Below are positions 9,708 through 17,388 of a DNA stretch of 64,000 nt, piece after piece (positions within the stretch are counted from its first letter, which is position 1; each line of letters starts with the position of its first letter). The notes under the pieces were generated by a model, which saw nothing but the letters and a program-made list of their open reading frames with translations, had not been told where the DNA came from and made no database searches. Source of the DNA: Pseudonocardia benzenivorans CB1190. GTDB lineage: Bacteria; Actinomycetota; Actinomycetes; Mycobacteriales; Pseudonocardiaceae. The stretch is from NCBI RefSeq assembly GCF_000196675.2, contig NC_015312.1, positions 6,898,501 through 6,962,500 of the forward strand. The letters are read 5' to 3'. The position numbers and the translations under genes are program-made.

Positions 9708-11159
9708 TCAGTGCCCGTGGGTGCTGCTCGACGCGTAGTCGGTGTACGTGTAGGGGTTGTCGAGGATCTTCGTCTGCGGGATCTCCGGGTTCATCCCCGC
9801 CTGCCAGGCCTCCTCGCCCATGGTCGAGCGCAGGTGGCTGACGGTGTCGTCGATCTCCGCACGGGCCCGGTCCAGGTCGATCCCGACGAGCCGGTGGTCG
9901 CGCTTGACGATCCGGCCGTCGATGATCACGGTGTCCACGTCGCCGCGCTGGGCCTGGAACACCACGTGGCCGTACGGGTTGAGCAGCGGGAAGGACACGG
10001 GCGAGTCGTCGTTCTTGATCAGCACGACGTCGGCCTTGTAGCCGGCCTGGAGCCTGCCCAGCTCGCCGTCGCGCCCCAGGGCCCGGGCACCGCCGCGGGT
10101 GGCCCACTCGACGACCTGGTCGGCGCGCAGCGACGCGTTCGTGACGGTCTCGCTGCGGGCGTGCGCCTCGAGGTGCTCGCGGGAGCGGTCGGCGCCGAGG
10201 GTCGAGCGCATGGCGGAGAACAGGTCGCCGCTCCACCAGACGCTGGTGTCCATCGACAGCGAGACGGGGATGCCGTGCGAACGCAGCGCCCAGCTGGGCG
10301 GGTAGCCCTGGCCGGCGCTCTGCTCGCTCTCGGTGGAGATCGACACCGAGCCGCCGGTGGCGGCGATGCGGTTGTACGAGTCGGCCGACAGCGATGCGGC
10401 GTGGACGAACACACTGGTCTCGTCGAGGAAACCCGCCTCGTGGGCGAGCCGGATGCCCTCGTCGTTGGTGGCGCCCCAGACCCCGGCGTGCGTCGTGACC
10501 GGGACGCCGAGCTCGCGGGCCGCCTCGTAGGCGGCGCGCTCGGGGAACTCGGGATCGCCGGTGACGTCGAAGGCCAGCTGGAAACGCAGCATGTCGTCGC
10601 CGGTGTCGATGGCCCGGCGGGCGAACGCGCGGAAGTCCGGCGAGTTGGTCCACTCCCAGGGCGCCTGCTGGATGTTGCCGTAGGCGAGGACGAAGCGGCC
10701 CGGAACGGAGCGCAGGGCGTCGGTGGCGGCCTCGGCGTGCTCGACGGTCTGCAGGCCGTGCGACCAGTCGACGGTCGTCGTCACGCCGGCGTCGACGGAC
10801 TCGATCGCGGCGAGCAGGTTGCCGGCGTGGACGTCCTGCGGCCGGAAGTGCCTGCCGGACTCCAGGTAGTACCAGACGAAGTACTGGGTGAGGGTCCAGT
10901 CGGCGCCGTAGCCGCGCATGGCCGTCTGCCACATGTGCCGGTGGGTGTCGATCATGCCGGGCATGACGATCCCGCGGCGGGCGTCGATCTCGACGGTGCC
11001 CGCCGGGACGGTCAGCGCGGGGCCGACGGCCACGATGCGGTGTCCCGAGACGTGGACGTCGGTGTCGAGGAGCACGGAGCGCGCGTCGTCCATCGGCAGC
11101 ACCGTCCCACCGCGCAGGACGGTGTCCGGTCCGGTCGCGTCCCGGTTGACGTCGCTCAT
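9708..11159 (-). CDS. Metal-dependent amidohydrolase (deaminase-like)
   Basis: Amidohydrolase-superfamily enzyme of the cytosine/guanine deaminase and chlorohydrolase (TRZ/ATZ) type, 483 residues. The metal-binding HXH reads DTHRHMWQTAMRG near residue 75; later conserved positions include THAGVWG (metal His), FVHAASLSADSYNRIA, and the catalytic aspartate in LSMDTSVWWSGDL. The C-terminal KADVVLIK and VIIDGRIV segments close the beta-sandwich. ATG 11159 is preceded by GAGGGAG. It diverges from the IclR regulator gene and is thus its likely target. The substrate is unknown; an N-heterocyclic or aminated aromatic compound feeding the ring-cleavage operon is plausible. Confidence 0.88.
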   Translation of the reverse strand: MSDVNRDATGPDTVLRGGTVLPMDDARSVLLDTDVHVSGHRIVAVGPALTVPAGTVEIDARRGIVMPGMIDTHRHMWQTAMRGYGADWTLTQYFVWYYLESGRHFRPQDVHAGNLLAAIESVDAGVTTTVDWSHGLQTVEHAEAATDALRSVPGRFVLAYGNIQQAPWEWTNSPDFRAFARRAIDTGDDMLRFQLAFDVTGDPEFPERAAYEAARELGVPVTTHAGVWGATNDEGIRLAHEAGFLDETSVFVHAASLSADSYNRIAATGGSVSISTESEQSAGQGYPPSWALRSHGIPVSLSMDTSVWWSGDLFSAMRSTLGADRSREHLEAHARSETVTNASLRADQVVEWATRGGARALGRDGELGRLQAGYKADVVLIKNDDSPVSFPLLNPYGHVVFQAQRGDVDTVIIDGRIVKRDHRLVGIDLDRARAEIDDTVSHLRSTMGEEAWQAGMNPEIPQTKILDNPYTYTDYASSSTHGH

Positions 11160-11195
11160 CGCTTCCGCTCCCTCGCGTGGCATCCGGCGCTACTA

Positions 11196-11209
11196 CGGAC
11201 GAACGTCCG
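11196..11209. promoter_or_regulatory. Putative IclR operator, site 1
   Basis: CGGACG-AA-CGTCCG, a perfect 6-base inverted repeat in the divergent promoter region between the amidohydrolase and the IclR regulator. It shares 13 of 15 positions with the repeat upstream of the CoA-transferase gene (12206-12221), which supports one regulator acting on both. Confidence 0.65.
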
Positions 11210-11375
11210 CCCACCGGCCCCTGTGGACATCGGTCACTCTCACGCAGGTCGTGTCACCCTGTCAATGCACCGTCGCACGCCGCGTCGCGGCCCGTCCGCA
11301 ACGCTCCGTCCGCGTGCCGGACAGCTGGTCGCTAGCCTGGTCGTCGACGCCGCACGAACCGGAAGAGGTGGTGGC

Positions 11376-12179
11376 ATGCCGCGCGAGGGAACGGGCCCCG
11401 ACTTCATCGAGGCCCTCGCCCGTGGCCTGGACGTCATCCGCGCGTTCCCGCCGGGCCGGCCGGTCATGTCGCTCAGCGACGTCGCGACCGCGACCGGACT
11501 GGCCCGCCCCACCGCGCGCCGCATCCTGCTGACGCTCGAGGAGCTCGGCTACGTGCGCGTCGACGGCAACGGTTTCGCCCTCACCCCGCGGGTCCTCGAC
11601 CTCGGCGTCGCCTATGTGCGGTCGATGGGCCTGTGGGACGTCGCGCGCCCGCACATGGAGCGGCTCGTCGCACGGACCAACGAGTCGTGCTCGATCGCGC
11701 AGCTCGACGGCTCCGACATCGTCTACGTCGCGCGGGTCGCGGTGCCGAAGATCGTCTCGCTGGCGGTGCAGATCGGCACGCGCTTCCCCGCGCTGCAGAC
11801 CTCGCTCGGGAAGGTGCAGCTCGCCGCGCTCGCGCCGGACGAGCTCGAGCGAGTGCTGGCCGAGCCGACGCGCTCGGGCCTGGTCCCGCGGTGGCAGCCC
11901 GGTGTCGAGGAGCGCGACGCCGAGCTGCGGGAGGTCCGCGCCCGAGGCTGGGCGCTGACCGACGAGCAGCTGACGCTGGGCATCCGCTCCGTCGCCGCGC
12001 CGCTGCGCGACGGGGACGGGCGGGTCATCGCGGGCATCAACGTCAACACCCACGCCGCGGAGACGCCGGTGGAGACGCTGCTGGAGCACCACCTCCCGGC
12101 GCTGCTGCAGGTCGCGGGCGACATCAGCGCCGACTTCGCGCGGCTGGCGAACGTCCCGCACGTGACCGTCGCGTCCTGA
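11376..12179 (+). CDS. IclR family transcriptional regulator (PcaR-like)
   Basis: DNA-binding regulator of 267 residues. The N-terminal winged helix-turn-helix covers residues about 12-75 (FIEALARGLDVIRAF, then SLSDVATATGLARPTARRILLTLEELGYV), and the effector domain follows, with the family-type SCSIAQLDGSDIVYVARV, TSLGKVQLAAL and GWALTDEQLTLGIRSVAAPL. This resembles the PcaR/PobR subgroup that controls protocatechuate and beta-ketoadipate catabolism. It lies between the divergent amidohydrolase and the co-directional CoA-transferase operon, each with a matching inverted repeat upstream. The ATG at 11376 follows GGAAGAGGTGG. Confidence 0.93.
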   Translation: MPREGTGPDFIEALARGLDVIRAFPPGRPVMSLSDVATATGLARPTARRILLTLEELGYVRVDGNGFALTPRVLDLGVAYVRSMGLWDVARPHMERLVARTNESCSIAQLDGSDIVYVARVAVPKIVSLAVQIGTRFPALQTSLGKVQLAALAPDELERVLAEPTRSGLVPRWQPGVEERDAELREVRARGWALTDEQLTLGIRSVAAPLRDGDGRVIAGINVNTHAAETPVETLLEHHLPALLQVAGDISADFARLANVPHVTVAS

Positions 12180-12205
12180 CGGTCGGTGTGGCAGCATCGC
12201 CTTCA

Positions 12206-12221
12206 ACGGACGACTGTCCGT
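12206..12221. promoter_or_regulatory. Putative IclR operator, site 2
   Basis: ACGGAC-GACT-GTCCGT, a perfect 6-base inverted repeat in the 68-base gap between the regulator and the CoA-transferase gene. It is nearly identical to the repeat at 11196-11209 and is placed to control the catabolic operon. Confidence 0.65.
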
Positions 12222-12247
12222 CTGACGGCCGAAGGATCGAGCTGCTG

Positions 12248-13429
12248 ATGTCAGAAATCGCCCGGAAGGACGCCGCCGGACCGTTGGCGGGGTTGCTCGT
12301 GGCCGACTTCTCGCGCGTGCTCGCGGGGCCCTACGCGACGATGCTGCTCGCCGACATGGGCGCCGAGGTCGTCAAGGTCGAAGGCCCGAGCGGCGACGAG
12401 ACGCGCACCTGGACCCCGCCGTCGCGCGGTGAGGACTCCACGTACTACCTCGGCGTCAACCGCGGGAAGCGGTCGATCGTCCTCGACCTGCGCGACGAGG
12501 CCGACGCGGCGCTCGGCCGGGAGCTGGCCCGGCGCGCGGACGTCGTGATCCAGAACTTCAAGCCCGGTGGGCTCGCGAGGTACGGGCTGGACTTCGAGTC
12601 GGTCCGGACGGCGAACCCGGCGACCGTCTACGCGTCGATCAGCGGGTTCGGGGCCGGGGCCGGGGCGCGGGTGCCCGGCTACGACCTGATGGTCCAGGCG
12701 ATCTCGGGCCTGATGAGCCTCACCGGTGACCCCGACGGGCCGCCCTACCGCGCCGGCATCTCCGTGTTCGACGTAATGGCGGGCAACCACGCCGTCATCG
12801 GCATCCTCGCCGCGCTACGGCACCGCGACGCCACCGGCGAGGGCCAGCACGTCGAGGTCAACCTGCTGTCGTCGGCGCTGACGGGGCTGGTGAACCACAG
12901 CTCGGCCTACGTCGCGGGTGGCGTCGTGCCCACCCGGATGGGCAACGCGCACCCGAGCGTCTTCCCGTACGAACCGCTCCCGACCGCCGACAACGACCTC
13001 ATCGTCGCCGCCGCGAACGACGGGCAGTTCCGCAGGCTGTGCGAGGTCCTCGGCATCCCCGACGTGCCCGACGACCCGCGCTTCGCCCGCAACGCCGACC
13101 GCACGGCCAACCGCGAGGTGCTGCGCCCGATCCTGACCGAGCGGCTCGCCACGCGGGGTGCGCTCGAATGGTTCGACCTGCTCGTCGCGGCCGGCGTGCC
13201 GTGCGGGCCGATCAACACCATCGACGGCGGGTTCGCGATGGCCGAGCGGCTGGGCCTCGACCCGGTCGTCGAGGTGGGCGAGGGCGACCGCGCCGTCCCG
13301 ACGACGCGGCACCCGGTGCGTTTCTCGGCCACCCCGGCCGGCTACGCGCTGCCGCCCCCGCGGCTCGACGAGCACGGCCCCGAGCTGCGTGAATGGCTGT
13401 CGAAGGAACCGGAGGACGACCGTGGCTGA
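12248..13429 (+). CDS. CaiB/BaiF family (class III) CoA-transferase
   Basis: Transfers CoA between carboxylic acids. The protein has 393 residues and opens with the family pattern GLLVADFSRVLAGPYATMLLADMGAEVVKVE. The catalytic aspartate is expected in the PGYDLMVQAISGLMSLTG segment near residue 147, and GISVFDVMAGNHAVIGILAAL follows. Its last eight bases overlap the downstream lyase gene, so the two products are coupled: probably this enzyme makes the CoA ester that the lyase cleaves. The likely substrate is a tricarboxylic or hydroxy-dicarboxylic acid released after ring cleavage; that is inference. Confidence 0.92.
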   Translation: MSEIARKDAAGPLAGLLVADFSRVLAGPYATMLLADMGAEVVKVEGPSGDETRTWTPPSRGEDSTYYLGVNRGKRSIVLDLRDEADAALGRELARRADVVIQNFKPGGLARYGLDFESVRTANPATVYASISGFGAGAGARVPGYDLMVQAISGLMSLTGDPDGPPYRAGISVFDVMAGNHAVIGILAALRHRDATGEGQHVEVNLLSSALTGLVNHSSAYVAGGVVPTRMGNAHPSVFPYEPLPTADNDLIVAAANDGQFRRLCEVLGIPDVPDDPRFARNADRTANREVLRPILTERLATRGALEWFDLLVAAGVPCGPINTIDGGFAMAERLGLDPVVEVGEGDRAVPTTRHPVRFSATPAGYALPPPRLDEHGPELREWLSKEPEDDRG

Positions 13430-14237
13430 CGGGACGTACCCGACGGCGCTGGGGGCGTCGAGCCCCGACCGGATCACCCTGCTCGGCGCGGATCTCGCCG
13501 ACGACGTCATGGGCAGCGTCGGCTTCGGCGAGCTGGCGTTCTGGCTCGCGACGCAGCGGCGCCCCTCGCGCGGTGAGACGCGGGTGTTCGAGGCCGTCCT
13601 CGCCGCTCTCGCCGACCACGGGTTCACCCCGACCGCGATCGTCACCCGGCTCACGTACCTGTCCGCCCCCGACTCCGTGCAGGGCGCCCTCGCCGCGGGC
13701 CTGCTCGGCGGCGGCTCCCGGTTCCTCGGCGTCACCGAGGACTGCGGCCGCTTCCTGCACGACGTCCTGGCCGGCGTCGACGGGGCCCTGCCCACCGACG
13801 ACGCCGGCTGGGACGCGATCGCCCTCGAGACGGTGACGGCCCAGCGCGCCGCCCGCCGGTTCGTCCCCGGCCTGGGCCATCACGTGCACAAGGACGGCGA
13901 CCCCCGCACGCCGCGGCTGTTCGCCATCGCCGAGGAGGAGGGCGTCGCCGGCCCGCACCTGGCGCTGTTCGCCGCGATCGGGCGCGTCCACCCCCAGGTG
14001 CTCGGCCGGACCCTGCCGCTCAACGGCGCCGGGGTGTGCGGTGCCGCGCTGGCCGACCTCGGGCTGCCGATGGAGCTCCTGCGCGGCTTCGCGCTGCTGG
14101 CCCGCACCGCCGGGCTGATCGGACAGCTCGCCGAGGAGCTGCGCCGGCCCGTCGCCAACGACATCTTCCTCTCCGTCGACCTGAACAACCGGTCGATCGC
14201 GCCGGAACCGTACGAGCCCGGGAGCGCCCATGGCTGA
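13422..14237 (+). CDS. Citryl-CoA-lyase-like protein (citrate synthase fold)
   Basis: The 271 residues match the small domain and active-site part of citrate synthase, as in citryl-CoA lyases that split a 3-hydroxyacyl-CoA into acetyl-CoA and an oxoacid. The motif PGLGHHVHKDGDPRTPRLF corresponds to the synthase GHRVYK..DPR segment with its catalytic histidine, and the catalytic aspartate would be in VANDIFLSVDLN near residue 250. It is far shorter than a full citrate synthase (about 430). GTG 13422 has GGAGG six bases upstream and overlaps the CoA-transferase gene. The true substrate is unknown. Confidence 0.82.
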   Translation: MADGTYPTALGASSPDRITLLGADLADDVMGSVGFGELAFWLATQRRPSRGETRVFEAVLAALADHGFTPTAIVTRLTYLSAPDSVQGALAAGLLGGGSRFLGVTEDCGRFLHDVLAGVDGALPTDDAGWDAIALETVTAQRAARRFVPGLGHHVHKDGDPRTPRLFAIAEEEGVAGPHLALFAAIGRVHPQVLGRTLPLNGAGVCGAALADLGLPMELLRGFALLARTAGLIGQLAEELRRPVANDIFLSVDLNNRSIAPEPYEPGSAHG

Positions 14238-15096
14238 GCTGGTCGCGGTGATCGCGTCCACGCACCACCCGTTCTACTACCGGGCGAGCACCGCCACCGG
14301 CGACGACCGGCCTCCCTTTGCCGACGAGTGGGTACGCAAGATCGAGGCGTTCCGCGAGACCCTCACCCGGGCCCGCCCCGACGTGCTCGTCATGGTCGGG
14401 TCCGACCACTTCCACCAGCTGTGGCTCGACAACATGCCGCAGTTCCTGGTCGGCAAGGCGCCGTTCTACGACGCCAACTGGTACAACGAGGAACGCGAGT
14501 TCGGCCTGCCGCGGATGACGCTCGCGGGTCAGGAGGACCTGTCGGCCCACGTGCTGCGGCACGGGCTCGACGCGGGGTTCGACCTCGCGTTCTCCAACGA
14601 GCTGCGCATCGACCACTCGATCACGTGCCCGATCATCACGCTGCGTCCGCAGGCGGACCTGCCGATCGTGCCGGTGTACACCAACATCTTCGCGCCGCCG
14701 CTGCCACAGCCGTCGCGGTTCGTGCAGCTCGGCCGCACGATCCGCGAGCTCGTCGAGTCGTGGCCGTCCGACCGGCGGGTGGCCGTGATCGGGACCGGCC
14801 ACCTGTCACTGGAGCTGGGCGGCCCCCGGCAGTTCGGCCCGCACGGACCCGACCCGGAGTTCGACCAGAAGGCCGTTGGCTGGATCGCGGGCGGCGACAT
14901 CGAGGAGTGCCTCGCCGAGGTCAGCCTGGAGAGCCTGCACGCCCCCGGTAACGCCACGCACGGGTTCATGGACTTCATGTTGATGATGGGTGTCGCGGGG
15001 GAGGGGCAGAAGGCCGACTACGTCGACACCTACGACCTGTTCCACACCATGGAGGCGTACTTCACCTGGTACCCGGGAGGGATCGACGGTGAGTAG
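14230..15096 (+). CDS. LigB-like class III extradiol ring-cleavage dioxygenase, large subunit
   Basis: Belongs to the LigB/DODA extradiol dioxygenase superfamily, enzymes that open catechol-type rings next to the two hydroxyls using Fe(II). The protein has 288 residues. Candidate iron ligands are His12 (ASTHHP) and His60 or His62 (VGSDHFH). At the place of the LigB catalytic Ser-His the sequence reads GTGHLSLEL (residues 188-196), and at the position of the third ligand Glu242 it has ATHG (His244), so the active site looks non-standard. ATG 14230 overlaps the lyase gene by eight bases. The next gene encodes a LigA-like small subunit. Confidence 0.85.
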   Translation: MAELVAVIASTHHPFYYRASTATGDDRPPFADEWVRKIEAFRETLTRARPDVLVMVGSDHFHQLWLDNMPQFLVGKAPFYDANWYNEEREFGLPRMTLAGQEDLSAHVLRHGLDAGFDLAFSNELRIDHSITCPIITLRPQADLPIVPVYTNIFAPPLPQPSRFVQLGRTIRELVESWPSDRRVAVIGTGHLSLELGGPRQFGPHGPDPEFDQKAVGWIAGGDIEECLAEVSLESLHAPGNATHGFMDFMLMMGVAGEGQKADYVDTYDLFHTMEAYFTWYPGGIDGE

Positions 15097-15451
15097 GTAT
15101 CTGGTCGACAAGTTCCTCTTCACCGTCGACCGCGACCCGGCGCTCGTCGAGCGCTACCGGGAGGACCCGGTCGGCACCGTGGCGTGGTGGGAGGCCGAGG
15201 AGGCCAACCGGCTGCTCAGCTGCATCGCCGACGAGCGGTCGACGTGGCTCGCCTTCGACGACGCGGAACGGGCCGCGCTCGCCGGGCACGACTACCGGGC
15301 CCTCTTCGCGCTCGGCGCCCACCCCTTCCTGACGTTGACCCTGTTCATCGCGATGTTCGAGCGCGACCACGACGAGCCGCTCGGCTTCCAGCGTGAGTAC
15401 GCGCAGCGGCTCGCGGACTTCTCGCTGCCCTACCCCGACATCGCGACGTGA
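15089..15451 (+). CDS. LigA-like small subunit of the extradiol dioxygenase
   Basis: A 120-residue protein resembling the alpha (LigA) subunit of protocatechuate 4,5-dioxygenase, which caps the active site of the LigB subunit. The supporting stretch is residues about 40-90, with AFDDAERAALAGHDYRALFALGAHPFLTLTLF matching the LigA pattern of an aspartate-rich turn, a helix and a LLRLGG-type segment (quoted here as its key parts). GTG 15089 overlaps the LigB-like stop by eight bases and the gene overlaps the reductase by four. A two-subunit LigAB-type enzyme is therefore likely. Confidence 0.75.
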   Translation: MSRYLVDKFLFTVDRDPALVERYREDPVGTVAWWEAEEANRLLSCIADERSTWLAFDDAERAALAGHDYRALFALGAHPFLTLTLFIAMFERDHDEPLGFQREYAQRLADFSLPYPDIAT

Positions 15452-16419
15452 CGTCCACGGTGCGGGCCGTCGAGATCCGGTCGGCCGGCTCCGCACCGGA
15501 GCCGGCCGACCGGCCGCGTCCGGTGCCGCGCGCCGGTGAGGTGCTGGTCGACGTCCTCGCCGCGCCCATCACGCCGCTCGACGTGCTGTGCGCGTCCGGG
15601 ACGTCGTACTTCGGGATGCCGCAGATGCCCTACGTGCCGGGCGTGCAGGGCGTCGGCCGGGTCGAGGGCGCGACGGTGTGGTTCCCGACGACGGCGGGGA
15701 TGGGCCCGGGCGACGGCAGCATGGCCACGACGGCCGTCGCGGCCCGCGCCGACCTGGTCGTGCTGCCCGACGGCGCCGACCCGGTGCTCGTCGCGGCGCT
15801 CGGGCTCTCGGCGGTCGCCGCGCACATGGCCCTGACGTGGCGCGGCGAGCTGCAGCCGGGGGAACGGGTGATCGTCCTCGGTGCCGGCGGCGTGGTCGGG
15901 CAGGCGGCGATCCAGCTCGCGCGGGTCGCCGGCGCCGCGCACGTCGTCGCGGGTGTCCGGTCGCCGGCCGCAGCCGAGCGCGCGCTGCGGGCGGGCGCCG
16001 ACGCGGTCGTGGAGACCGGGTCCGACGACGTCGCGGGCATCGCCGCCCGGCTCCGCGCCGCGGCGGGCGGCTCGGCCGACCTCGTGCTCGACCCCGTCTT
16101 CGGGGTGCCCGCCGCCGCGGCCCTGCGCGCCCTGCGACCCGGTGGCCGGCTGGTGAACCTCGGCTCGTCCGCGGCGGAGACCAGCCCGATCGACTCGTCC
16201 ACGCTGCGCAGCCGCTCCCTGCGGGTGCTCGGCTACACCAACAACGAGCTCACCGCGGAGCAGCGGTCGTCGGCACTCGTCGTCGTCGCGCGGCTGGCCG
16301 CCCGCGGCGAGCTGACCGTCGCCCACGAGACCGCCGCACTCGACGACGCCACTGCGGCCTGGCGGCGCCACCGCGCCGGTGCCGCCGAGGGCCGGATCGT
16401 CCTCGTCCCGCCGTCCTGA
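15448..16419 (+). CDS. Zinc-independent MDR-family dehydrogenase/quinone oxidoreductase-like
   Basis: Medium-chain dehydrogenase/reductase, 323 residues. The N-terminal GroES-like domain includes PYVPGVQGVGRVEG, and the NAD(P)-binding Rossmann motif VIVLGAGGVVGQAAIQLARVAG begins near residue 140. The structural-zinc cysteine cluster is absent, which points to the quinone-oxidoreductase or enoyl-reductase side of the family. GTG 15448 sits in a GTGA overlap with the LigA-like stop. As the last gene of the operon it may reduce or oxidise a ring-cleavage intermediate; the actual substrate cannot be read from sequence. Confidence 0.88.
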   Translation: MTSTVRAVEIRSAGSAPEPADRPRPVPRAGEVLVDVLAAPITPLDVLCASGTSYFGMPQMPYVPGVQGVGRVEGATVWFPTTAGMGPGDGSMATTAVAARADLVVLPDGADPVLVAALGLSAVAAHMALTWRGELQPGERVIVLGAGGVVGQAAIQLARVAGAAHVVAGVRSPAAAERALRAGADAVVETGSDDVAGIAARLRAAAGGSADLVLDPVFGVPAAAALRALRPGGRLVNLGSSAAETSPIDSSTLRSRSLRVLGYTNNELTAEQRSSALVVVARLAARGELTVAHETAALDDATAAWRRHRAGAAEGRIVLVPPS

Positions 16420-16440
16420 CCGGCCGACGCCCACAACCGG

Positions 16441-17355
16441 TCAGGGCGCGGTGAGCGGCGGGTTCCACGGGGAGGCGACGACGTCGTCGGCGTGCACGGA
16501 CGTCGACCCGCTCGCCGTGGCCTCGACGGTGAAGCGGACCCGACGGCCGGTGCGGTCGTCGGCGGCGGGCTCCGGCAGACCCTCCCAGTCGATCACGGCC
16601 GTGCCCGACAGGTGCAGCGTCGTACCGGTCGCGAAGTCGAGGAACAGCAGCGCCGCCGCCGGGTCGACCGCGATGTTGCCGAGGCTGTTGAACAGGTTGT
16701 TGCCCGGATAGTCCGGCCACCACAGCTCGTGTGCGTTCTCGACGCGGACGAAGCCCGGGGCGCCGCCGCGGTGGGATGCGTCGCTGCCACGGTCGGGATG
16801 GGTGGTGCCCAGCAGGAACGTGTCGGCGTTCCGGACCAGCGCGACGTCGGCGTCGCCGAGTGCCGCCCCGCGCCGGACTGCCCCGGACGACCCGACGTGC
16901 GCGGTGCTGTCGAGGACGCGCTGCTGGATGTACTGCGGGCAGTTGCCGAAGGCCTGCTCGGCCGCGACCACGAGCCCGGAGGCACCCGAGACGGCGAGCG
17001 TGCCGTTGACGCGGATGCGCCGCCGCCGCGCGAAGTCGACCGCGATCAGCCCGACCGCCTGGCCCGCGGGGACGTCGTGCAGCGGGTCGCCCGCGGCGGG
17101 CCGGCCGTGCACCCGCAACGTGGTCTCGTCCGCGACCTCGAGGAACCCGGGATCGCCGGTCAGCGGGGAGATCCAGAGCCGCCCACCGGCGTCGCGCGCG
17201 GTCAGGGCGGCGAACGTGCGATCGGCCAGGAAGCGCTCGGCGCCACCACGCAGGTCGGGTGCCGCGAGCATCCCGGCGAGTCGCGCGGCGTCGCCGCTGA
17301 CCCCTGCGCGTTGCTGCACGGCCACCTCGCCCGCGTGGAAACCGTGACCGGCCAT
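16441..17355 (-). CDS. Pyridoxamine 5'-phosphate oxidase-family flavin-binding protein
   Basis: Split-barrel FMN-binding protein of 304 residues. The segment from about residue 150 to 240, with TFLLGTTHPDRGSDASHRGG, GFVRVENAHELWWPDYPGNN and NSLGNIAVDPAAALLFLDF, is typical of the long PPOX-like proteins that bind flavin or F420 rather than of true PdxH. It converges with the ring-cleavage operon, 21 bases away. Its own promoter region contains an inverted repeat resembling the IclR sites, so it may belong to the same regulon as a flavin reductase or detoxifying enzyme; this is inference. Confidence 0.85.
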   Translation of the reverse strand: MAGHGFHAGEVAVQQRAGVSGDAARLAGMLAAPDLRGGAERFLADRTFAALTARDAGGRLWISPLTGDPGFLEVADETTLRVHGRPAAGDPLHDVPAGQAVGLIAVDFARRRRIRVNGTLAVSGASGLVVAAEQAFGNCPQYIQQRVLDSTAHVGSSGAVRRGAALGDADVALVRNADTFLLGTTHPDRGSDASHRGGAPGFVRVENAHELWWPDYPGNNLFNSLGNIAVDPAAALLFLDFATGTTLHLSGTAVIDWEGLPEPAADDRTGRRVRFTVEATASGSTSVHADDVVASPWNPPLTAP

Positions 17356-17372
17356 GTGTGCCTCCCGAGGTC

Positions 17373-17388
17373 GGGAACGGACGTTCCC
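17373..17388. promoter_or_regulatory. Putative operator upstream of the PPOX gene, site 3
   Basis: GGGAACG-GA-CGTTCCC, a perfect 7-base inverted repeat 17 bases upstream of the PPOX-family start codon. It shares the ACGTNC half-site core with the two repeats near the IclR regulator, but is less similar to them than they are to each other. Confidence 0.5.

Follow-up and report, generated by a model that had tools for sequence, protein, structure and literature searches.

Gene layout and protein families

The gene cluster described here lies in a stretch of 64,000 nucleotides of contig NC_015312.1 of the actinomycete Pseudonocardia benzenivorans CB1190 (genome G000, 7.44 Mb). This whole stretch, of 73% G+C, is called the window below. 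The cluster joins genes for a LigB-like ring-cleaving dioxygenase and its putative partner to genes for a coenzyme A (CoA)-transferase and a citryl-CoA-lyase-like protein. Names were assigned by Pfam and NCBIfam searches of the eight window proteins encoded between positions 9708 and 17355:

9708-11183, minus strand: AMH, an amidohydrolase-superfamily hydrolase (Amidohydro_1, E=4.9e-31)
11376-12179, plus strand: IclR-type regulator (IclR_C, E=1.1e-31)
12248-13429, plus strand: CaiB, a family III CoA-transferase (CoA_transf_3, E=5.6e-118)
13422-14237, plus strand: CCL, a citryl-CoA-lyase-like protein of the citrate-synthase fold (Citrate_synt, E=8.4e-16)
14230-15096, plus strand: LigB-like ring-cleavage subunit of the LigAB/DesB fold (Pfam LigB, E=3e-25)
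15089-15451, plus strand: LigA-like small partner of 120 residues, following LigB (named from its position and the sub-threshold match of a distant homologue)
15448-16419, plus strand: MDR reductase, quinone-oxidoreductase-like, accessory (ADH_zinc_N, E=2.2e-19)
16441-17355, minus strand: PPOX flavoprotein (TIGR04025-like, below cut-off)

The AMH gene adjoins the IclR gene and is divergent from caiB-ccl-ligB-ligA-mdr. An earlier note, made from the letters of this DNA alone, had described the five genes from the CoA-transferase to the MDR reductase as overlapping by 4-8 bases. We read the same arrangement, with 8 bases at caiB/ccl, ccl/ligB and ligB/ligA, and 4 at ligA/mdr. The protein families it had named are also those found in Pfam and NCBIfam, except for the LigA-like protein, which has no match in either collection at 1e-3. 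A homologue of that protein at locus L127 matches PF07746 at 2.5e-4, below the cut-off; a profile search gave no significant PDB match for the window protein, and in a fold search DesB ranked second, without significance (E=3.0, probability 0.60). The name LigA-like is putative, and rests on position and on the sub-threshold match at L127. The PPOX gene stands inside the interval chosen by the earlier note and directly follows the operon on the other strand; it is outside the conserved unit, because no such gene (at least 40% identity) occurs within 8 kb of LigB in any of the 80 relatives described below.

By fold and by sequence similarity, LigB is predicted to belong to the class III extradiol (LigAB/DesB) group. 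It matches 1b4u_B (LigAB) with E=1.5e-17, and its AlphaFold model (mean predicted local distance difference test score, pLDDT, 81.9) retrieved LigAB first (best 1bou_B, template modelling (TM) score 0.81), followed by nine chains of the gallate dioxygenase DesB, over a TM range of 0.76-0.81. CCL exceeds the cut-off of its NCBIfam model (PRK06224.1-5, 267.9 versus 193 bits) and aligns to the citryl-CoA lyase 6hxp with E=3.2e-23. With that enzyme and with the citrate-synthase-like domain of ATP-citrate lyase it shares the fold family and two active-site histidines, His66 (invariant in the 20 rows aligned) and His153 (His in 126 of 126 rows); we assume that the His/His/Asp catalytic roles of citrate synthase apply.

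CaiB combines the family match with Asp175, present in more than 97% of 95 rows and presumably the equivalent of the catalytic Asp169 of formyl-CoA transferase; it is predicted to be a family III (CaiB/BaiF) enzyme, and its solved relatives include succinate-hydroxymethylglutarate CoA-transferase. Fragments of a family III CoA-transferase gene, some with internal TGA stops, were also seen at G000:C2:111411-112516, probably a decayed copy. The IclR protein comes closest to the model of the PcaR/PcaU/PobR subfamily, with 266 bits against a cut-off of 285.

AMH scores just under the NCBIfam PRK08204 cut-off and matches PF04909 only below threshold. It carries the pattern H81/H83, H232, H261 and D312 in more than 97% of 83 rows, which we take to be the HxH, H, H, D metal ligands of amidohydrolases. 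Among solved structures it is closest to atrazine chlorohydrolase and deaminases. A role as a deaminase preparing an N-heterocycle was considered and is disfavoured: the Glu of the H-x-x-E motif, presumably characteristic of such deaminases, is absent after H232, and clusters without AMH have hydrolases of other kinds (Amidohydro_2 in the second LigB clade, CocE/NonD at L119, an alpha/beta-hydrolase at L214 and L126).

Conservation of the cluster and exchange of the ring opener

The LigB scan took in 84,980 species, each represented by a single genome, and gave 394 relatives, from which the best 80 loci were kept. The order caiB-ccl-ligB-ligA is preserved in all 80. AMH and IclR are each found in 76 loci and MDR in 60; for AMH as for IclR, two of the four misses are contigs shorter than 12 kb. 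All six core genes (AMH, IclR, CaiB, CCL, LigB and LigA) are present together in 75 of the 80 loci, with AMH and IclR varying in position and strand, and with an insertion separating ligB from ligA at L084. Crude gene calling recovered no further gene family in more than 12 of the 80. These best 80 loci include 21 named actinomycete genera.

More distant versions were found on plasmids of Aminobacter, Sinorhizobium and Martelella, where LigB is 63-67% identical and accompanied by a LigA partner, CCL and CaiB, the last two only 33-40% identical to those of the window. Two Alphaproteobacteria have an FMN reductase in the place of MDR. A second LigB clade (clade 2; L127-L130 and L140) has LigB proteins 34-42% identical to that of the window; a CaiB of 35-36% identity is encoded close by, and the stretches examined gave no match to CCL. 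Where scanned, the neighbouring genes encode an MDR dehydrogenase and a protein of the Amidohydro_2 family (L127, L140), plus an OsmC protein and a weak LigA match (L127). The conserved order goes beyond chance proximity: in G000 itself, four other LigB matches (L143-L146) were inspected with some 18 kb of surrounding DNA each, and neither ccl nor caiB was matched there at E 1e-12 over half the query, a filter for which the LigB match of L146 is itself too short.

We then counted gene partners in the actinomycete set of 394 genomes. LigB of this clade (at least 65% identity) is present in 25 and CCL (at least 60%) in 44. Among the latter, 23 have LigB beside ccl, 7 have instead a hydroxyquinol-type intradiol dioxygenase, 13 have neither in the stretch examined, and one (G152) has ccl on a different contig from the one that carries LigB and caiB. 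In none of the 13 was a CaiB found in that stretch, and 9 of them have an AMP-dependent acyl-CoA ligase beside ccl. A CCL branch in which this ligase replaces CaiB was seen at L151, L157-L160, L163-L165 and L219, with no LigB or intradiol match in the stretch examined. Setting aside the split G152, all 30 genomes in which caiB adjoins ccl also have a ring-cleaving-dioxygenase gene beside them (two more pairs, L167 and L213, are cut off by contig ends). The earlier note had held that a transferase/lyase pair conserved without the dioxygenase in most relatives would speak against its reading; the count of 30 out of 30 goes the other way.

The intradiol enzyme consists of PF04444 and PF00775 (Dioxygenase_N and Dioxygenase_C), and its nearest solved relatives are PnpC 3n9t and the hydroxyquinol 1,2-dioxygenase 1tmx (E ~1e-72). 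The residues aligned to the iron ligands of 1tmx, which we take to be two Tyr and two His, are all present. At 9 loci this enzyme stands in for LigB/LigA. AMH and IclR were each found at 8 of them, the exception, L211, starting at a contig end. LigB and the intradiol enzyme were found together within 6.5 kb of one ccl in none of 121 loci. Both types occur within a single genus, matched to Streptomyces, where ccl is present in 9 of 150 genomes. LigB accompanies it in 4 of these and the intradiol enzyme in 3; one has a VOC protein plus an alpha/beta-hydrolase, and in the last ccl lies at a contig end. The VOC protein and hydrolase stand beside CaiB/CCL at L214 and L126, where neither LigB nor the intradiol enzyme is present, but were not accepted as a third opener, as a relative of the VOC protein also occurs beside LigB clusters (L040, L065). 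A DoxX-family membrane protein is encoded near the opener or the cluster in loci of both the intradiol and the LigB type (L148, L153, L154, L156, L215 and L216).

Phylogenies of the tail proteins were used to count how often the opener changed, gains and losses being counted alike. A quick CCL tree, with 69 rows, requires 5 changes of the intradiol label, at least 4 of them forced by starred branches, and neither the LigB nor the intradiol label reached so low a count in any of 500 shuffles. A careful CCL tree of 47 rows gives 6 changes, at least 5 forced by starred branches; the intradiol label forms one group in 0 of 200 bootstrap trees, and a single clade is rejected by the approximately unbiased test (p-AU 8.15e-40). 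In the CaiB tree there are 7 changes, at least 4 of them forced. For the CCL trees the LigB rows were thinned to every third or fourth of L039-L118, and the careful tree left out the long rows L119, L121, L122 and L166, five of the eight acyl-CoA-ligase rows, and rows with no recognised partner. We conclude from comparison of the loci, at the level of sequence, that two unrelated dioxygenases, the LigB/LigA extradiol enzyme and the hydroxyquinol-type intradiol enzyme, repeatedly replaced one another before the same tail.

How constant the tail is can be judged from the intradiol loci themselves. At L148-L150, L211 and L212, CaiB (where present) is 80-83%, CCL 82-85% and AMH (where present) 66-74% identical to the window proteins, values comparable to those of many LigB clusters, whereas at L153, L154, L156 and L162 CaiB and CCL are only 65-72% identical. 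These last four of the nine loci are compatible with another explanation, in which the two openers have different substrates and products and a tolerant CaiB/CCL pair serves as a generic CoA-dependent tail for ring-cleavage products. The varied accessory hydroxylases and hydrolases, which suggest different upstream substrates, are also in its favour. We nevertheless consider it unlikely: in the other five loci the tail proteins are as close as in many LigB clusters, and IclR is kept in 8 of the 9, therefore the same intermediates and the same inducer are favoured.

The intradiol clade (at least 60% identity) was detected in 10 of the 394 actinomycete genomes, with the tail present in 7. A ccl remnant lies between caiB and the intradiol gene at L208:10402-10836 (minus strand), a deletion having joined the beginning of CCL to a segment late in it; G291, the genome concerned, keeps another ccl elsewhere, in a LigB cluster. 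At G000:C1:5325759-5327865 (L207) the genome of the window itself encodes a second intradiol enzyme, which belongs to the swap clade (72%); it stands beside a CaiB only 36% identical to that of the window, with a VOC protein and a methyltransferase in the surroundings.

Proposed pathway and findings at odds with it

We think it probable, though far from certain, that the cluster is an aromatic catabolic one, in which a ring-cleaving dioxygenase feeds an oxo-dicarboxylate or oxo-tricarboxylate to a fixed AMH-IclR-CaiB-CCL tail, the likely substrate being a pyrogallol-type triol. That openers were repeatedly exchanged before the same tail is, in our view, the strongest evidence for ring cleavage by LigB/LigA and for processing of its product by the tail. 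Because the opener is exchanged while AMH, IclR, CaiB and CCL remain, the prediction of a ring cleavage feeding a shared CoA-transferase/lyase tail is well supported. The earlier note had likewise joined ring cleavage to CoA chemistry in one unit, and this part of its reading stands; gallate or protocatechuate as the substrate is unproven.

In the first step, LigB/LigA or the intradiol enzyme would convert the triol and O2 into 2-hydroxymuconate (from pyrogallol), 4-oxalomesaconate (from gallate) or a derived pyrone. In the second, AMH would probably hydrolyse or hydrate the ring-cleavage product, like LigI and LigJ of the same superfamily. CaiB would then transfer CoA from a donor such as succinyl-CoA onto the distal carboxylate, and the CCL-like protein would split the resulting 3-hydroxyacyl-CoA into acetyl-CoA and a 2-oxo acid. 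MDR, or the FMN reductase, would hold an easily oxidised triol in the reduced state, or reduce an enone. AMH could act before ring opening instead; the earlier note had it supplying the substrate, which is one of two readings, as it could as well act after ring opening. The first step is supported by homology and by opener exchange, and the order and chemistry of the later ones are what we infer from the protein families and from CCL homologues in other clusters. These homologues are found with CoA-transferases and hydratase-type genes, LeuC/LeuD in Cupriavidus and MmgE/PrpD in Limimaricola, and their neighbourhoods appear to follow a logic of hydration, activation and cleavage, as proposed here. 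In its most specific form we advance the proposal tentatively, as something a little short of an even chance: a widespread, undescribed route, in which the ring product of a 1,2,3-triol would pass through a family III CoA-transferase to an Asp-less citrate-synthase-fold lyase, yielding acetyl-CoA and an oxo acid, with mutually exclusive openers, extradiol (with an unusual iron site) or intradiol.

Several findings weigh against these proposals, beginning with the active site of LigB. We take the iron site of LigAB to be His12, His61 and Glu242 (2-His-1-Glu). Both iron-site histidines are kept in 96 of 96 clade-1 and 6 of 6 clade-2 rows, whereas the column of the Glu ligand holds Gly or Gln in each of the 18 family rows aligned and Glu in all 4 canonical rows. 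The position of the usual catalytic His (the His195 equivalent) is not kept either in the 18 aligned family rows: the window protein has GTGHLSL where canonical enzymes have a motif of the GTGGxSH/GxGGxSH type, the His of which is presumably catalytic, and a His (His191) stands four residues earlier. Because the Glu ligand is replaced and the usual His motif altered, the iron site predicted for LigB must differ from the canonical LigAB site. His12, His60, His129 and His191 are conserved in all 96 clade-1 and all 6 clade-2 rows, and His244 in the 96 rows of clade 1 only, where it is a candidate iron ligand.

The fold of LigB, nearest LigAB/DesB, and the PcaR/PobR-like regulator would also suit a classical gallate or protocatechuate 4,5-cleavage pathway whose hydratase and aldolase are encoded elsewhere, CaiB and CCL handling an unrelated organic acid under shared regulation. 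This we regard as very improbable: ccl overlaps ligB in the window, caiB and ccl accompany it in each of the 80 relatives, exchanges of the opener left the tail in place, and the canonical iron-ligand Glu is missing.

Returning to the findings that weigh against ring cleavage with a CoA-dependent tail, none of 125 CCL sequences has the catalytic Asp of citryl-CoA lyase (Ala stands there in 119, among them that of the window, Ser in 3 and Thr in 3), and in that column Asp is found only in the 6HXP row. The lyase reaction postulated by the earlier note, giving acetyl-CoA and an oxoacid, is plausible by family; a true citryl-CoA-type cleavage is unproven. The phylogenetic clustering of openers is weak in the thinner careful CCL tree, where 45 (LigB) and 13 (intradiol) of 500 shuffles were as low as the observed changes, and in the CaiB tree, where 159 and 70 of 500 were; frequent exchange and erratic transfer would both give weak clustering. 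Some loci also depart from the rule: the intradiol enzyme is found with a CaiB (79%) and a decayed ccl in G291, with a CaiB of only 36% identity in G000 and with neither in G353, while the LigB/LigA pair of Rhizobium plasmids L123 and L124 and the LigB relative of G352 (L134) have no CaiB/CCL in the stretch examined. As to the substrate, hydroxylases are rare in the 80 loci (2 PobA-like, 1 phenol-hydroxylase-like, 0 MhpA-like), and locus L208, described below, fits hydroxyquinol and maleylacetate equally with pyrogallol.

Substrate and relation to known pathways

Extradiol and intradiol enzymes can cut the same bond of a contiguous triol and give one product. Because both opener types yield one product from it, a triol of the pyrogallol/gallate type is the simplest common substrate, which suggests a pyrogallol-type (1,2,3-) triol or its acid. 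The flanking genes, of which selected ones were scanned for families and others compared with a few reference proteins, add hints from few loci, all of them in keeping with aromatic-acid or phenol chemistry. PobA-like hydroxylases are found in or near L085 and L096, a phenol-hydroxylase-like one in L040, MhpA-like ones in or near L120, L131, L162 and L208, and P450s in or near L044, L047, L117, L123 and L124. The L085 protein is only distantly PobA-like, reaching 241.9 bits where the model requires 351 (best solved match E=9e-50).

Locus L208 bears on another possible substrate. It combines a gamma-resorcylate-decarboxylase-like gene (2dvt, E=2.5e-83), an MhpA-like flavin-dependent (FAD) hydroxylase, a CaiB 79% identical to that of the window, the intradiol enzyme and the decayed ccl, with an MFS-like frame labelled by eye. 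The ring product could then be maleylacetate, formed from hydroxyquinol, which CaiB would convert to maleylacetyl-CoA and the CCL-like protein, acting as a hydrolase of the beta-ketoacyl-CoA, would cleave to acetyl-CoA and maleate; CaiB/CCL would thereby replace maleylacetate reductase and the beta-ketoadipate tail. No maleylacetate reductase was recognised among the L208 genes scanned, a part of the open reading frames there. Along with this gene assembly, the intradiol enzyme being nearest hydroxyquinol 1,2-dioxygenases argues for the hydroxyquinol route, and an Asp-less lyase could perform a hydrolytic retro-Claisen cleavage. Maleate hydratases belong to the LeuC/LeuD family, and a leuD without leuC is annotated beside the L120 cluster. 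However, a LigAB-type extradiol enzyme is not expected to make maleylacetate from hydroxyquinol, and the route does not account for AMH. We therefore give this route a low probability, and keep the 1,2,3-triol as the preferred substrate. Known hydroxyquinol/gamma-resorcylate pathways resemble L208 in intradiol enzyme type, decarboxylase-like gene and FAD hydroxylase, and differ from it in that L208 has CaiB and a ccl remnant.

In outline the proposed route resembles the beta-ketoadipate pathway (PcaGH/CatA, PcaIJ, PcaF), in which ring cleavage is likewise followed by CoA transfer to a dicarboxylate and by a C-C cleavage releasing acetyl-CoA, and whose PcaR/PcaU/PobR regulators are those nearest to the regulator here. 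The enzyme families would be different: a family III instead of a family I CoA-transferase, a citrate-synthase-fold protein instead of a thiolase, and an opener of the LigB or hydroxyquinol type. Neither a PcaIJ-type transferase nor a thiolase is found among the eight window proteins.

With the protocatechuate 4,5-/gallate pathway (LigAB or DesB, LigI, LigJ, LigK) the cluster shares a LigB-fold opener with a small partner, and an amidohydrolase-superfamily gene adjoining the opener, as at the LigAB-type genes of L221 and L222. It differs in its CoA-transferase and CCL, its non-canonical LigB site and its IclR regulator, and none of LigC, LigI/LigJ (PF04909) and LigK was found above Pfam cut-offs among the eight window proteins, to which the search was confined. 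According to one report (PMC8431788), the regulator of the corresponding Pseudarthrobacter pathway is LysR-type, in contrast to IclR here, an actinobacterial enzyme forms 4-oxalomesaconate from gallate, and homologues of protocatechuate 4,5-dioxygenase are almost confined to Proteobacteria. In contrast to that picture, the LigB-type cluster recurs across actinomycetes and, with other CaiB/CCL versions, on alphaproteobacterial plasmids.

A parallel to the tail itself is a distant pair on Cupriavidus necator pBB2 (L227), where a CCL of 45% identity and CaiB stand side by side as they do here; that cluster differs in having LeuC/LeuD-type hydratase genes, and no dioxygenase gene is found among the annotated neighbours. 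Full-text searches of open-licence papers, which mostly leave subscription papers outside their coverage, turned up no description of this gene combination, nor any mention of maleylacetyl-CoA, hydroxymuconyl-CoA, oxalocrotonyl-CoA or oxalomesaconyl-CoA.

Actinomycetes are major degraders of plant-derived phenolics. If confirmed, the route would place a CoA-dependent tail alongside the meta, ortho and gallate routes already known, and would give a function to proteins named 'citryl-CoA lyase' despite the missing catalytic Asp. It would also represent a natural experiment in which unrelated dioxygenases were swapped in one pathway, narrowing the substrate to a compound that both cut to the same product.

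A last observation concerns a MetE-like methyltransferase reduced to its catalytic domain, encoded at L040:12203-13252. Relatives 71-92% identical to it occur at L039, L046, L065, L085, L095, L096, L117, L119 and L139, so that the gene goes along with the cluster in Aminobacter as well as in some actinomycetes; it may serve a demethylation step.

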